Below, piece after piece: positions 1 through 27,381 of a stretch of 64,000 nt of DNA. The notes below the pieces were generated by a model that did no database searches, was not told the DNA's origin, and saw only the letters and a list, made by a program, of their open reading frames with translations. This DNA comes from Clostridiales bacterium. Lineage in GTDB: Bacteria; Bacillota; Clostridia; Christensenellales; Borkfalkiaceae. The stretch spans positions 1 to 64,000 of the forward strand of contig SVHJ01000002.1 of NCBI GenBank assembly GCA_015055835.1, read 5' to 3'. Positions within the stretch are counted from its first letter, which is position 1, and each line of letters starts with the position of its first letter. The position numbers were made by a program, and so were the translations under genes.

Positions 1-104
1 GCAACGTCATCATAAAACTCATCAAGTTCCTCTTGCGTCATAGGTGGCAGCCCCGTAGCGGTGAGCATTTTATTGAACTCATCCAAATTTGCTTTATCGT
101 CCAT
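1..104 (-). CDS. unknown protein, N-terminal fragment cut by window edge
   Basis: An open frame reads leftward from an ATG at 104 and runs off the window, giving 34 residues that begin MDDKANLDEFNKMLTATGLP and continue with an acidic segment. An AAAGGA ribosome-binding site lies 7 bases upstream of the ATG, which supports the start. The fragment is too short to assign a family. It is downstream of the tRNA-Glu terminator, so it is probably a separate transcription unit. It reads as a soluble acidic N terminus with no signal peptide. Confidence 0.55.
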   Translation of the reverse strand, partial: MDDKANLDEFNKMLTATGLPPMTQEELDEFYDDV

Positions 105-235
105 AGCATATCCTTTCAAATGAAGTCCCCTATATTATATCATAAAAGAACCCCTTTTTCAATACCAAATATCGTCCGCAGACTATAATTTTAACGATTA
201 TCATAATTTTAACGATTACCCATAAATTTAACGCA

Positions 236-286
236 AACAAAAAAGCCCATCCACCGAAAGCGCAAAAACTCTCGGAAGATGGGCTT
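236..286 (-). terminator. intrinsic terminator, leftward
   Basis: Read leftward, AAGCCCATC (278-286) pairs with GATGGGCTT (243-251), extended by an inner CCGA/TCGG stem, and is followed by a T-rich tract. It lies downstream of the two tRNA genes and probably ends their transcript. The 105-397 interval otherwise holds no convincing gene. Confidence 0.75.
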
Positions 287-397
287 CTCCTATCAAAAAT
301 ATGCTTTTTATGCCTCAAAAGGGCAAAAATACCCCTAAAAGGCAATAAAAAACGCAGAATTGGCACAAATAATTGTATCCTATTCTGCGTTCTTATT

Positions 398-472
398 TGG
401 TGACCCCTACGAGAATCGAACTCGTGTTACCGCCGTGAAAGGGCGATGTCTTAACCGCTTGACCAAGGGGCC
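398..472 (-). tRNA. tRNA-Glu (UUC)
   Basis: The reverse complement folds as a 75-nt tRNA with encoded CCA. The acceptor arm GGCCCCT pairs with AGGGGTC, the T loop is GTTCGAATC, and the anticodon loop CTTTCAC carries UUC. It is transcribed leftward, directly after tRNA-Met with a 17-nt spacer, so the two likely share one precursor. Confidence 0.96.
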
Positions 473-23002: not shown

Positions 23003-23539
23003 ATGCGTGAAGATTTAAGTTGTATTTGGATTTCTAAAGAACAAATTGCTGAAAAAGTAAAAGAACTTGCAAAACAATTAGACGAAGATTATAAGGATAA
23101 AAACCCACTTGTCGTTTGCATATTAAAAGGTGCAGTAATGTTTTTTACCGATATAGTTAAGGCAATGACTATTCCTCTTGAAATTGATTTTATGGCAATA
23201 TCAAGTTATGGTCAAGGCGCTACTAGTGGGGTTGTAAAATTCGTTAAGGACTTAGACGTTAGCGTAACTGGAAGACACGTTATTATAATTGAAGATATTA
23301 TTGACACAGGTAACACCCTTTATTACCTAAAGAATATTTTAAATGGAAGAGATCCTGCATCAGTAAAAATTTGCGCTCTTTTAGATAAATATGAACGCCG
23401 TGTTGCAGACGTCAAAGTTGACTACAAAGCATTCGATATCAGAGATGAGTTTGTTGTAGGCTACGGTCTTGACTATGCTGAAAAGTATAGAAATTTAGAT
23501 GAAATTGGCGTATTAAAACGTGAAATTTACGAAAAATAA
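23003..23539 (+). CDS. hpt: hypoxanthine phosphoribosyltransferase
   Basis: Salvages hypoxanthine and guanine with PRPP. The PRPP motif VIIIEDIIDTGNTL is near residue 96, and LKGAVMFFTDI near residue 40 binds pyrophosphate. I start at ATG 23003 (MREDLSCIW) because AAGGAGAATACT precedes it. The earlier in-frame ATG at 22979 lies inside tilS without an SD. The length is 178 residues. A strong terminator follows. In many relatives ftsH comes next; here ftsH is 17 kb away. Confidence 0.95.
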   Translation: MREDLSCIWISKEQIAEKVKELAKQLDEDYKDKNPLVVCILKGAVMFFTDIVKAMTIPLEIDFMAISSYGQGATSGVVKFVKDLDVSVTGRHVIIIEDIIDTGNTLYYLKNILNGRDPASVKICALLDKYERRVADVKVDYKAFDIRDEFVVGYGLDYAEKYRNLDEIGVLKREIYEK

Positions 23540-23548
23540 TAAAGAATA

Positions 23549-23582
23549 AAAAGCGTTAGTGTTTTTACTAACGCTTTTTTTA
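23549..23582. terminator. bidirectional terminator between hpt and the LOG gene
   Basis: AAAAGCGTTAGT pairs with ACTAACGCTTTT, with A and T tracts on both sides. It serves the converging hpt and leftward LOG-family genes. Confidence 0.85.
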
Positions 23583-24164
23583 TTAACCGTCTTTTAATTC
23601 TCTTATCGTTCTTTGTTCTTTGTCAGGTTTTTCTACGTATTCAAAAACCTTTTTTGGGTCGTCGCTTATAAAGAAAAGGTCGTAAACGCTATCCTTTATA
23701 AACCTTTTATCAACTGCCGCCTTTAATACGCTGAAAACTTCGTTATAATATCCTAAAACGTTGTATAAAGCAATCGGTTTGTTGTGGCGAAGAAGTTGTT
23801 TTAGGGTTAAAATTTCAAAAAATTCTTCTAAAGTACCTATGCCACCAGGCACTACAACGAAAGCATCTGCATTTTCTTCCATAATTTGTTTTCTTTGACG
23901 CATAGTTTCCGTTTCAATAAGTTTATCACACTTATCATAAATAACTTCAATAGTTTCTTCACTAAAAAAACTAGGAATAACGCCTAAAATTTGACCGTCT
24001 TTTTCCCTAACACCCCTTGCTACTGCGCCCATAAGACCGTTTCCACCACCACCGAAAACCAAAGAGTGTCCCCTTTCAACTAATTCTCTGCCAAATTCTT
24101 CTATCTTTTTAATATATTCTTCATCAATAACTGGCGACGCTGCACCATAAACACAAATTCTCAA
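23583..24164 (-). CDS. LOG-family nucleoside monophosphate phosphoribohydrolase
   Basis: The 193-residue protein has the LOG Rossmann pattern with VFGGGGNGLMGAVARG near residue 38 and the signature PGGIGTLEEFFE near 107. LOG proteins cleave N6-modified AMP to the free base, and bacterial members may act on other nucleotides. The substrate here is not known. Translation starts at TTG, with AAGGAG 9-10 nt upstream, because the conserved opening RICVYGAASP follows directly. A TATAAT lies about 20 nt above the SD. Confidence 0.88.
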   Translation of the reverse strand: MRICVYGAASPVIDEEYIKKIEEFGRELVERGHSLVFGGGGNGLMGAVARGVREKDGQILGVIPSFFSEETIEVIYDKCDKLIETETMRQRKQIMEENADAFVVVPGGIGTLEEFFEILTLKQLLRHNKPIALYNVLGYYNEVFSVLKAAVDKRFIKDSVYDLFFISDDPKKVFEYVEKPDKEQRTIRELKDG

Positions 24165-24211: not shown

Positions 24212-24772
24212 CTAAAAAACAACTACGCCACCTAAACTTTCAAAAACTTTTATAAATTCTTTTAATTCTTCATTTTCTTTTAGATTTATTAAACTAATTT
24301 CTCCAAAAGAAACGGTGCCGGCGATTATTAAAGCAAAAACTAAACTGTTTTCTAAATTAGTTGCGTCAATCTCTTTACCTCTAACAAGCCCCCTGCCGTC
24401 AACTTCAATTTTGTCTTCTTTTATCTCTATTAAAACGCCAAGTTCTTTTAGTACTCTTATAGTATCAAGAGTGTTTTTAGCCGTTAAGTCAACGCCGACA
24501 AAGTTGGTTTTTGCAACGGCAAAAGATGCAGTAGTTAAAAATAGTGGTAAAAATTCTTCCTTACCTTCTAAATTTATTTCGCCACCCTTTACGGTAATAA
24601 GTAAAAATAAATTTATTAGTTCTTTGTTTAAGTTAATTGACCTTTCGGCAAACTTTTCTATTTTAATTCTGTTACCAAAAATATTTGAGGCGATAAAAGA
24701 GGCTTTAGTTAGGTCACTTTTATCATCTAAACAAACTATACCGTCAAGTTTTTTATTTTGTATCTTTAACAT
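24212..24772 (-). CDS. single-domain enolpyruvyl-transferase-like protein (MurA/AroA fold fragment)
   Basis: The 186 residues begin LDGIVCLDDKSDLTKASFIA, resembling the first strand-helix of AroA (GxIxxPGDKSxSHRA). They continue with a segment like the second half of the matching domain: IRVLKELGVLIEIKEDKIEV, then EIDATNLENSLVFALIIAG, and a final VFESLGGVVVF. The other domain and the catalytic Lys/Arg/Asp residues of MurA and AroA are absent. Full enzymes are about 420 residues. It overlaps recF by 20 nt and is translated from the same transcript. It may be non-catalytic or structural. Function unknown. Confidence 0.6.
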   Translation of the reverse strand: MLKIQNKKLDGIVCLDDKSDLTKASFIASNIFGNRIKIEKFAERSINLNKELINLFLLITVKGGEINLEGKEEFLPLFLTTASFAVAKTNFVGVDLTAKNTLDTIRVLKELGVLIEIKEDKIEVDGRGLVRGKEIDATNLENSLVFALIIAGTVSFGEISLINLKENEELKEFIKVFESLGGVVVF

Positions 24773-25868
24773 TTTTTCTTACCTTTATTTTGCCTTTTTC
24801 TATTTGAATTTTATTAATATCCATATCCTTAACGACCGTTCTATCAACGTGAGTTGCCGTTAATATGGTTTGCATACCAGTTATCCTTTTCATAAGTAGT
24901 TTTTGGCGTTTTTTATCAAGTTCAGATAAAACGTCGTCTAAAATCAAAATAGGATATTCGTTAAACCTTTCTTTAAAAAGTTCAACTTCGGCTAACTTTA
25001 TTGAAAGGGCAGCCGTTCTTTGTTGACCTTGTGAGCCGTAAACTTTTACGTTTTCACCATTTACTAAAATCTTTATATCGTCACGGTGAGGACCTATGGT
25101 TGTAAACCCAAGTTTAATATCCCTTTCATAATACTTTTTTAAGTCGTTATAAAAGGCTGTTTTTATATCTTCTTCCGTACCGATATAGTCGTTTTCTTTT
25201 GAAATAAAAAGTTCTTCTTTACCCTCTGTTAAAGAAAAATGCACTTCTTTAGCAATAGGATAAAGTTTAAGTAAAAAGTCGTTTCTTGCCTTTATAATTT
25301 TAGACGCCTCTTTAGAAAGTTGCTCGTCCCAAACGGAAAGGGTGTCCTTTATCATAAAAACGTCTTTTTCTTTTAACAAATTGTTTCTTTGCGCTAAAAT
25401 TTTGTTGTATCTATTAAGTGCATAAAAATACGCCTTTGACATTTGCGATAGAGAAATATTTAAAAATCTTCTTCTATCTTCAGGGCTTTCTTGTATAATT
25501 TTTAGTTCGCCAGGGTTAAAGAAAACGCTGTGCATATTGCCCATTAGTTCACCAATTCTACTTACCTGAACTTCGTTTACCTTAACCACCTTTTTGTCTT
25601 GTCTATTAAAACCTATTGAAACAATAACCTTACCGTAGTTAGAAATAGCCTCTCCTTTAATAAAAGCCTCTTCACTTTCATAATTTATTACCTGACTTTC
25701 TTTTGAAACCCTAGGAGAATACCCCGTGCAAAGATAAAAGATAGCCTCCCCAGCGTTAGTCTTACCTTGCGCGTTAGAGCCTAAAAGCAGATTGATACCG
25801 TTGGTAAATTCAATCTTTTCTTCACTATAATTTCTAAAGTTTTTTAAGGTTAAAGTTTTTATATACAT
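24753..25868 (-). CDS. recF: DNA replication and repair protein RecF
   Basis: SMC-like ATPase that helps load RecA at gaps. The Walker A GSNAQGKTNAGEAI is near residue 31, the signature region GSQGQQRTAALSIKLAEV near residue 275, and the Walker B ILILDDVLSELD near 303. It has 371 residues, the normal length. Unlike the common dnaA-dnaN-recF order, it is divergent from dnaA and no dnaN is next to it. No clear SD precedes the ATG. Confidence 0.95.
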   Translation of the reverse strand: MYIKTLTLKNFRNYSEEKIEFTNGINLLLGSNAQGKTNAGEAIFYLCTGYSPRVSKESQVINYESEEAFIKGEAISNYGKVIVSIGFNRQDKKVVKVNEVQVSRIGELMGNMHSVFFNPGELKIIQESPEDRRRFLNISLSQMSKAYFYALNRYNKILAQRNNLLKEKDVFMIKDTLSVWDEQLSKEASKIIKARNDFLLKLYPIAKEVHFSLTEGKEELFISKENDYIGTEEDIKTAFYNDLKKYYERDIKLGFTTIGPHRDDIKILVNGENVKVYGSQGQQRTAALSIKLAEVELFKERFNEYPILILDDVLSELDKKRQKLLMKRITGMQTILTATHVDRTVVKDMDINKIQIEKGKIKVRKNVKDTK

Positions 25869-26046
25869 AATAAAATAATAAAAATTAAAAAAAATTTCTT
25901 CTCTTTACTTTATTTTCTTGTAAAATTAAGGTATAATATAATTTACAAAAGGATAAACTGCAAATTTTTGCGTTTATACTACTTATTACTACTTATATAG
26001 TATATCTCAAAAAAATTACAAAATCAACTTTTAAGGGGAATTTACA
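25869..26046. promoter_or_regulatory. recF-dnaA divergent intergenic region, candidate origin or promoters
   Basis: The 178-nt spacer is AT-rich. TATAAT at 25932-25937 is a likely -10 for dnaA, with a weak TTTATT at -35. An SD (AAGGGGAA) precedes the dnaA ATG. I see no TTATCCACA-like DnaA box. It matters because transcription is mostly leftward to its left and rightward to its right. Confidence 0.45.
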
Positions 26047-27381
26047 ATGGAAGGATATGATTTTTTATGGAAAAATGCGCTTAAAGAGTTAGAAATTACC
26101 GTTTCTAATTTATCTTTCGCTACTTACATACAAATTTTAGAACCTGTTGATATTAAAGGAAACACTTTGGTTTTATGTTCTCCTAACGAGTTTTTTGGTA
26201 AACAAGTAGGCGAAGGCTCTCCTTTAGAAATAAAAATTAAAAAGGCGCTTGAAAAAACTGAATCAGGTGTTACTGATTTTGAACTTTTTTTCGGTACTAA
26301 AGAAGAATATATTAGAAAAAGTCAAGAAACTTTTGATGAAACTATTCCTACTACGCCTATCAATAGTAAATTTACTTTTGAATCTTTCGTAGTTGGCGAC
26401 TCTAACGAGTTTTTATACGCCGCTGCAAGAGCAGTTGCTGAAGCCCCTGGCGATACTTATAACCCACTTTTCATTTACGGTGGCACGGGACTTGGTAAAA
26501 CGCATATGCTAATGGCTATCGCTAACTACTTAAAATTACATAATCCATCTTTAAAGGTTATTTACACCACTTGCGAACAGTTCACTAACCAGTTTATTGA
26601 AAGTATTCGTCGTGGTAAAAATAACGGTGGTACTAATTTTAGAAATAAATATAGAAACGTTGACGTTTTATTAATTGACGACGTTCAGTTTTTAGCAGGT
26701 AAAGAAGGTATTCAAACTGAATTTTTCCATACTTTTAACGAACTTGTTATGCAAAACAAACAGGTTGTTTTAACTTCTGATAGACCTCCAAAGGAAATTG
26801 AACTTTTAGAAGATAGACTTCGTACGCGTTTTGAAGGTGGATTACTTGCAGACGTTCAACCACCTGACGTTGAAACGAGAATTGCAATTCTAAAAAGAAA
26901 GGCTGAAGAAAGAAAGTGTGTTTTAGACAATAAAGTATTACTTTTCCTTGCTGAAAATTCTGAACCAGACGTTAGAACGCTTATTGCAAGACTTACTAAG
27001 GTTATTTTTGCATCAAAACTTCACGAAAAGGAAATTACCGTTGATTTTGCTGCTGAAGCGTTAAAAGAGGCTACTTCTACCGTTCAAGAAGAAATTAAGA
27101 TTGACGATATTATCAAAAGCGTTTGCTCTTTCTTTAAAATTAATAAAAACGACCTACTTTCTAAAAAGAAAAATAAAGAATTTACTGAGCCTAGACAAAT
27201 TTGTATGTATTTAATTACAGAACTTATGAGTTTACCACTAGTAACTATCGGTCAAAAAATGGGTGGTAAAGACCACGCCACCGTTATTTACGCAAGAGAT
27301 AAGATTGCTGAACTTGTTGAAGAAGGTGGAAAAACTGCCGTTATGGTAAACGATATTAAAAACATGATTTTGAAAAAATAA
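26047..27381 (+). CDS. dnaA: chromosomal replication initiator DnaA
   Basis: AAA+ initiator that melts oriC. Domain I covers residues 1-80. The Walker [12 protein letters not shown] is near 146-156, the Walker [11 protein letters not shown] near 210, and the domain IV signature [15 protein letters not shown] near 410-425 reads DnaA boxes. It has 444 residues, a normal length. It is followed at 8 nt by mnmG rather than by dnaN. Confidence 0.97.

Follow-up and report, generated by a model that had tools for sequence, protein, structure and literature searches.

A half-size gene at the end of recF

The window, the whole 64,000-nucleotide stretch of DNA analysed here, carries on its minus strand a short gene, hereafter the half, that begins within the end of recF (Table 1). 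An intact frame overlapping recF had been reported in the first-pass annotation, and both features hold. The LOG-like gene follows 47 nt downstream of the half. Two terminator-like sites were found on the minus strand between positions 23500 and 26100, against a mean of 1.5 in shuffled sequences; the weaker one (5 pairs) lies inside the LOG-like gene. As the stronger site lies beyond that gene, co-transcription of the half with recF is plausible, and the LOG-like gene is possibly on the same transcript. The genome (G000) comprises 1.19 Mb in 37 contigs and is 95.9% complete. The gene recurs at this position in a second species of the genus (G001), with a product of equal length (186 aa) and 85% identity, so the half is not an assembly accident.

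Table 1. Genes and sequence features around the half-size gene, in window coordinates
Feature	Positions	Strand	Details
Half-size single-domain AroA-like gene	24212..24772	-	186 aa; ATG at 24772-24770, end at 24212; strand 1 and C-terminal half of the AroA fold, predicted as domain I
Overlap of half-size gene with recF end	24753..24772	-	20 nt, common to both genes
AAAGG, possible ribosome-binding site	24782..24786	-	9 nt before the ATG of the half-size gene, read off the sequence
recF, 371 aa	24753..25868	-	NCBIfam TIGR00611, 347.5 bits against a cut-off of 172
TIGR00730 (LOG-like) Rossmann-fold gene, 193 aa, TTG start	23583..24164	-	183 bits against a cut-off of 96.35
Terminator-like hairpin, 13 pairs, after the LOG-like gene	23548..23579	-	consensus match only
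Antisense open frame, 182 aa	24315..24863	+	overlies the half-size gene

We considered the antisense frame as a gene, given its own dN/dS of 0.34 and the absence of stops there too, and rejected it: 43 of 80 substitutions fall at third positions of the sense frame, and the homology lies on the sense strand. It is probably a shadow of the real gene's codon structure. Long antisense frames also occur in G001 (197 aa) and in G007 (210 aa), a genome of genus g7 that encodes another half. The textbook gene order is dnaA-dnaN-recF; unlike this, recF and dnaA are divergent in the window (25868-26047) and in the fetched g7 neighbourhoods.

Fold, descent and loss of catalytic positions

The enolpyruvyl-transferase fold comprises two similar domains with the active site between them. 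By sequence alone, the half is a weak match to this family, with an E-value of 0.04 and 13.1 bits against Pfam PF00275 (cut-off of 22.8 not reached) and of 1.1e-4 and 21.1 bits against NCBIfam aroA TIGR01356 (cut-off of 287.25 not reached); its best sequence match in the PDB is an EPSP synthase, at 1.1e-4. By AlphaFold2 with 30 aligned sequences, the half was modelled with a pLDDT of 92.5 and a pTM of 0.90. To see whether the fold had been dictated by the normal AroA sequences aligned with the half, we repeated the prediction with only the three half-size sequences; the best model (77.7 and 0.80) had the same strand-helix order, and the other four of the five had mean pLDDT values of 60-66. 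Both best models matched MurA and AroA crystal structures with Z-scores of 18.0-20.5 over 176-185 of 186 residues among the matches listed (about 20 over 179 residues for the model with pLDDT 92.5). The structural alignments use chain ranges such as 3..414, corresponding to the first strand plus the C-terminal half; consistent with this, the 50 matches listed by Foldseek have TM-scores of 0.62-0.72 over the query. The half is therefore not an AroA of the usual two-domain architecture; it is predicted to be domain I of the fold, with the inserted domain II absent, which bears out the earlier description of one complete domain in a half-size protein. By eye, the residues that follow the first strand (DKS in the window, ESK in G007) look like the start of the Lys22 helix of domain II and also like the helix re-entering domain I. 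Because the two domains are internal repeats, the deletion join may lie inside equivalent helices of both.

The half alone does not separate AroA from MurA: in BLAST-type comparison with those of its own genome it scores equally, at E 0.0019 for MurA and 0.0021 for AroA. What it leaves tied is settled by intermediates, namely the half of G007 and the full-length recF-linked AroA paralogs with broken catalytic positions, which we term AroA-prime. In a tree with 19 MurA proteins as the outgroup, the seven recF-linked proteins formed one clade within AroA (SH-aLRT 97), to which five recF-linked AroA of g6 genomes and the AroA of G177 were nearest (87, unstarred). When the halves were omitted and E. 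coli served as the outgroup, AroA-prime, g6 and G177 grouped at 94/99; a constraint joining AroA-prime and g6 without G177 was also not rejected (p-AU 0.374). A domain-I-only tree, from which the AroA of G147 (X at key positions) was left out, kept the seven together (93/99) with the link to g6 unsupported, and midpoint rooting of a tree that retained the halves gave weak deep forks. The AroA-prime of G237 had a mean BLAST score of 336 bits with g6 AroA, against 210 with other normal AroA. MurA has the same fold, and matches to both enzymes come up in the structure search; however, the half groups with AroA and outside the MurA clade, and the MurA of G000 is a separate, intact gene. The reactive Cys of MurA sits in a loop of domain II, which the half does not have. 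The MurA/AroA-like label of the first-pass annotation, correct as to the fold, can thus be sharpened: the half almost certainly descends from AroA and stands apart from MurA, and no different known family has emerged.

The AroA of G177, a member of the recF-linked clade, scores 288.9 bits, just above the cut-off, and its operon lies next to hpt-tilS; the recF-linked lineage was therefore catalytic before its decay. In this otherwise normal-looking aro operon, aroB (L094:3556-4559) is split into two frames, of 232 and 94 aa, by a true break or a sequencing error, and the chorismate synthase frame (L094:5738-7027, 429 aa) has a C-terminal extension that is chorismate mutase-like by eye. In a recF tree, G007 is placed among the g7 genomes (99/98) and away from the window's genus, so a single deletion that later moved, or two separate deletions, gave rise to the halves. 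These cluster together (97/96), with a species-like arrangement not rejected (p-AU 0.245), and they evolve fast, with a stem branch of about 2.3-2.5 changes per column.

Catalytic positions, 22 in all, were compared under what we take to be E. coli AroA numbering. R124 (replaced by K, K, K and I) and H385 (Y, R, G and P) are replaced in all four full-length AroA-prime, which also lack several of S23, 94-97, S169, Q171 and S197; K22, R27, K340, E341, R386 and K411 are kept in all four. In the window's protein, all remaining domain I catalytic positions are replaced, with D313 as the exception, where the residue is E, so that the reported loss of the catalytic residues stands along with that of domain II. 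The four AroA-prime keep 36, 28, 26 and 24 of 47 near-invariant AroA columns and the halves 7, 5 and 4 of the 19 they cover, compared with a median fraction of 0.98 for normal AroA left out in turn (lowest, E. coli, 0.67). All that were scored fall short of the TIGR01356 cut-off, AroA-prime with 271, 220, 171 and 150 bits and two of the halves with 31 and 21. That the AroA-prime of G237 and G120 are dead is less certain, because K22, R27, K340, E341, R344, R386 and K411 are kept there. In sum, the half resembles EPSP synthase in its complete domain I fold, its clade and its inherited operon position, and differs from it in lacking domain II and the catalytic residues, in its length (about 400-420 aa in the enzyme) and in scoring far below the family cut-off.

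AroB shows a parallel case. Full-length AroB-prime frames lie directly downstream of recF in G120 (L039:5008-6057, 193 bits) and G182 (L040:2719-3756, 204 bits), against a cut-off of 305. They keep 33 and 38, respectively, of 65 near-invariant columns, where normal AroB keeps a fraction of 0.97 or more; both lack three conserved His columns, presumably the metal ligands, and share derived residues in intact frames. These proteins are likely pseudoenzymes of the same decayed operon.

Relatives, recF neighbourhoods and selection

Our samples of the family (about 300 genomes) and of the order are draws from larger groups, with match lists ranked by E-value. Across 301 family genomes there were 26 matches at E<=0.01. 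Those in G000, G001 and G007 (a 201-codon frame) are half-size, and all the others run to about 400 codons or more. No further half-size case was found in 44 g7 genomes. A separate scan of genome contigs gave one locus, apparently the contig of G001 itself. Among the matches listed for 396 order genomes, the only half-size frames were those of G000 and G007, except for a 274-aa frame in G441 that starts 321 bases from the listed contig start. An absence from close relatives accompanied by drift, raised in the first-pass annotation as a point against it, is not seen within the window's genus, where both genomes have the gene with no sign of drift; outside the genus the gene is rare.

We annotated the recF neighbourhoods of 40 genomes (38 g7, one g4 and one g6) against reference proteins. 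Downstream of recF, G007 has its half and then an aroE-aroK fusion; G237 has a full-length AroA-like protein directly; G162 and G051 have maf and then a full-length AroA-like protein; G120 has an AroB-like and then a full-length AroA-like protein; and G182 has an AroB-like protein. Genus g7 thus contains four genomes with full-length AroA-prime and one, G007, with a half only; five of its 38 neighbourhoods carry AroA-prime or a half and two carry AroB-prime, six in all. The recF-linked paralog is therefore dispensable in this lineage, most g7 genomes being without it. In the remaining g7 neighbourhoods, some of which break off shortly after recF, no such gene matched at E<=0.01 apart from a weak aroB-like stretch downstream of recF in G202 (L047:2500-2952, E 5e-6), which could be a related dehydrogenase. 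In g6 (G061, G006 and G023), a whole aro operon lies directly downstream of recF, comprising DAHP synthase, a prephenate dehydrogenase-like protein, AroB, AroA, AroC, a chorismate mutase-prephenate dehydratase-like protein and AroEK; in G006, AroB (359.5 bits) and AroA (347.5 bits) are both above their cut-offs.

Normal pathway genes are also present elsewhere in G000. Contig C2 of G000 carries DAHP synthase, a prephenate dehydrogenase-like protein, AroB (360 bits, cut-off 305), AroA (354 bits, cut-off 287), AroC and a chorismate mutase-prephenate dehydratase-like protein, with aroEK on C5. A normal AroA, encoded at another locus and with the listed key residues intact, is present in every one of the seven genomes that carry AroA-prime or a half beside recF; in the six scanned, all but G001, it scores above the TIGR01356 cut-off (312-354 bits). 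AroA-prime occurs beside two separate lineages of normal AroA, which argues against one fixed AroA partner.

Between G000 and G001, with the first 7 codons (the recF overlap) left out, the half has a dN/dS of 0.214 (bootstrap 0.132-0.345) at a dS of 0.46, with no indel and with 22, 15 and 43 differences at codon positions 1, 2 and 3. The same pair gives 0.054 for recF, 0.067 for hpt, 0.104 for dnaA, 0.133 for murA, 0.154 for the LOG-like gene, 0.201 for tilS and 0.240 for normal aroA; a neighbour, C2_14564 (0.53), was set aside as a wrong pairing at 29% identity. When unconstrained change was simulated to the observed dS, the half's frame stayed open in 0 of 5000 runs, and in 110 of 5000 with only the 79 observed differences; the frames of AroA-prime, simulated to their observed change, stayed open in 40, 2, 0 and 0 of 2000. 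The simulations used an AT-biased point-mutation model with no indels, an absence that favours frame survival. On the evidence of this one species pair, the half is very likely under purifying selection and not drifting freely, in line with the earlier view that it is maintained.

Origin and retention of the half

The half is an enzyme homolog that has lost its catalytic residues and whose frame is kept by selection, as expected of a pseudoenzyme, the selection being read from one species pair. Catalytic positions have been lost while frames stayed open; therefore something other than EPSP synthesis has been selected. We consider it probable that the half is a dead AroA of one domain, retained for some non-catalytic function. 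There is strong support for its descent from a normal aroA whose operon followed recF, the arrangement still found in g6. Another normal AroA is present in g1 and g7 genomes, and the recF-linked copy lost catalytic positions while remaining a full-length open frame. The inserted domain II was then excised with the reading frame preserved, both in the window's genus and in one g7 genome; the first strand now runs into the C-terminal half, and domain I is complete again. This domain may act non-catalytically, as a stably folded module for binding.

The same series, from the near-normal G237 protein to the halves, could also be read as decay: a redundant aroA lost its function and then domain II, and the rest is a functionless relic that happens to be unbroken. 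The normal aroA elsewhere in the genome, the absence of recF-linked genes from most g7 genomes and the fast evolution of the halves are all compatible with this. However, the dN/dS of the half (upper bound 0.35) resembles that of tilS and normal aroA, neutral simulations fail to keep the frames open, and the 40 recF loci, a few of which end soon after recF, hold intact aroA copies or nothing, with no broken aroA remnant at E<=0.01. We therefore regard a relic in its last stage as rather unlikely. The half ends precisely at the natural boundary of the domain, which might instead point to a split enzyme, still catalytic, whose domain II is encoded elsewhere and assembles with the half. This is hardly credible: domain I has other residues at its catalytic positions, and the PF00275 matches of G000 at E<=1 are three, two full-length proteins and the half, with no lone domain II among them in a genome of the completeness given above.

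The first-pass annotation found such a domain unexpected beside a recombination gene. The adjacency is real, although the surprise mostly dissolves with the g6 operon, since the half owes its position to inheritance from an aro operon of that kind. Recruitment to DNA repair with RecF would fit the overlap, the shared strand and the adjacency in 7/7 recF-linked cases, where no more than one or two genes intervene. We think it very improbable, as the g6 operon accounts for the address and recF occurs in 293 of the 301 family genomes, the half in three. The position beside recF is no evidence of a recombination role, and nothing in the analysis connects the half with recombination.

If the half is a pseudoenzyme with a non-catalytic function, it might, by analogy, bind a protein or intermediate of the shikimate pathway and so tune the pathway, a suggestion we make only tentatively. 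It is less likely that the displaced AroA-prime and AroB-prime form a set of bacterial non-catalytic regulators that sense components of the pathway or dock onto them, with AroA-prime cut down, perhaps in two independent events (one in the window's genus, one in G007), to the single domain that bears the function. Fungal QutR-type repressors are dead relatives of shikimate-pathway enzymes, for which the working hypothesis is that the inactive protein still binds the inducer (PMC10512348). As described there, they likewise represent pathway enzymes kept without catalysis, but are built from other shikimate domains, eukaryotic and large, so the analogy is one of principle only. The AdoMet decarboxylase prozyme of T. 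brucei is a dead paralog retained beside the active enzyme that activates its partner in a proven heterodimer (PMC5201418). Its fold is unrelated, and the prozyme too is a precedent of principle only.

In the titles and abstract openings of the literature searched, with subscription journals thinly covered, we found no pseudo-AroA or one-domain EPSP synthase. A natural one-domain protein would indicate that a single domain of this fold can stand alone in the cell. Models of the fold's origin by duplication need such a stand-alone single domain. The finding also adds a lineage in which neighbouring pathway genes, aroB and aroA, lost catalysis once a second set was present, yet stayed open, and it puts on view a graded series from a near-normal enzyme to a single domain. 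Were the reading as a regulator true, the half would match in bacteria the QutR principle of fungi, and it would be the first case in nature of an enolpyruvyl-transferase fold with one domain.
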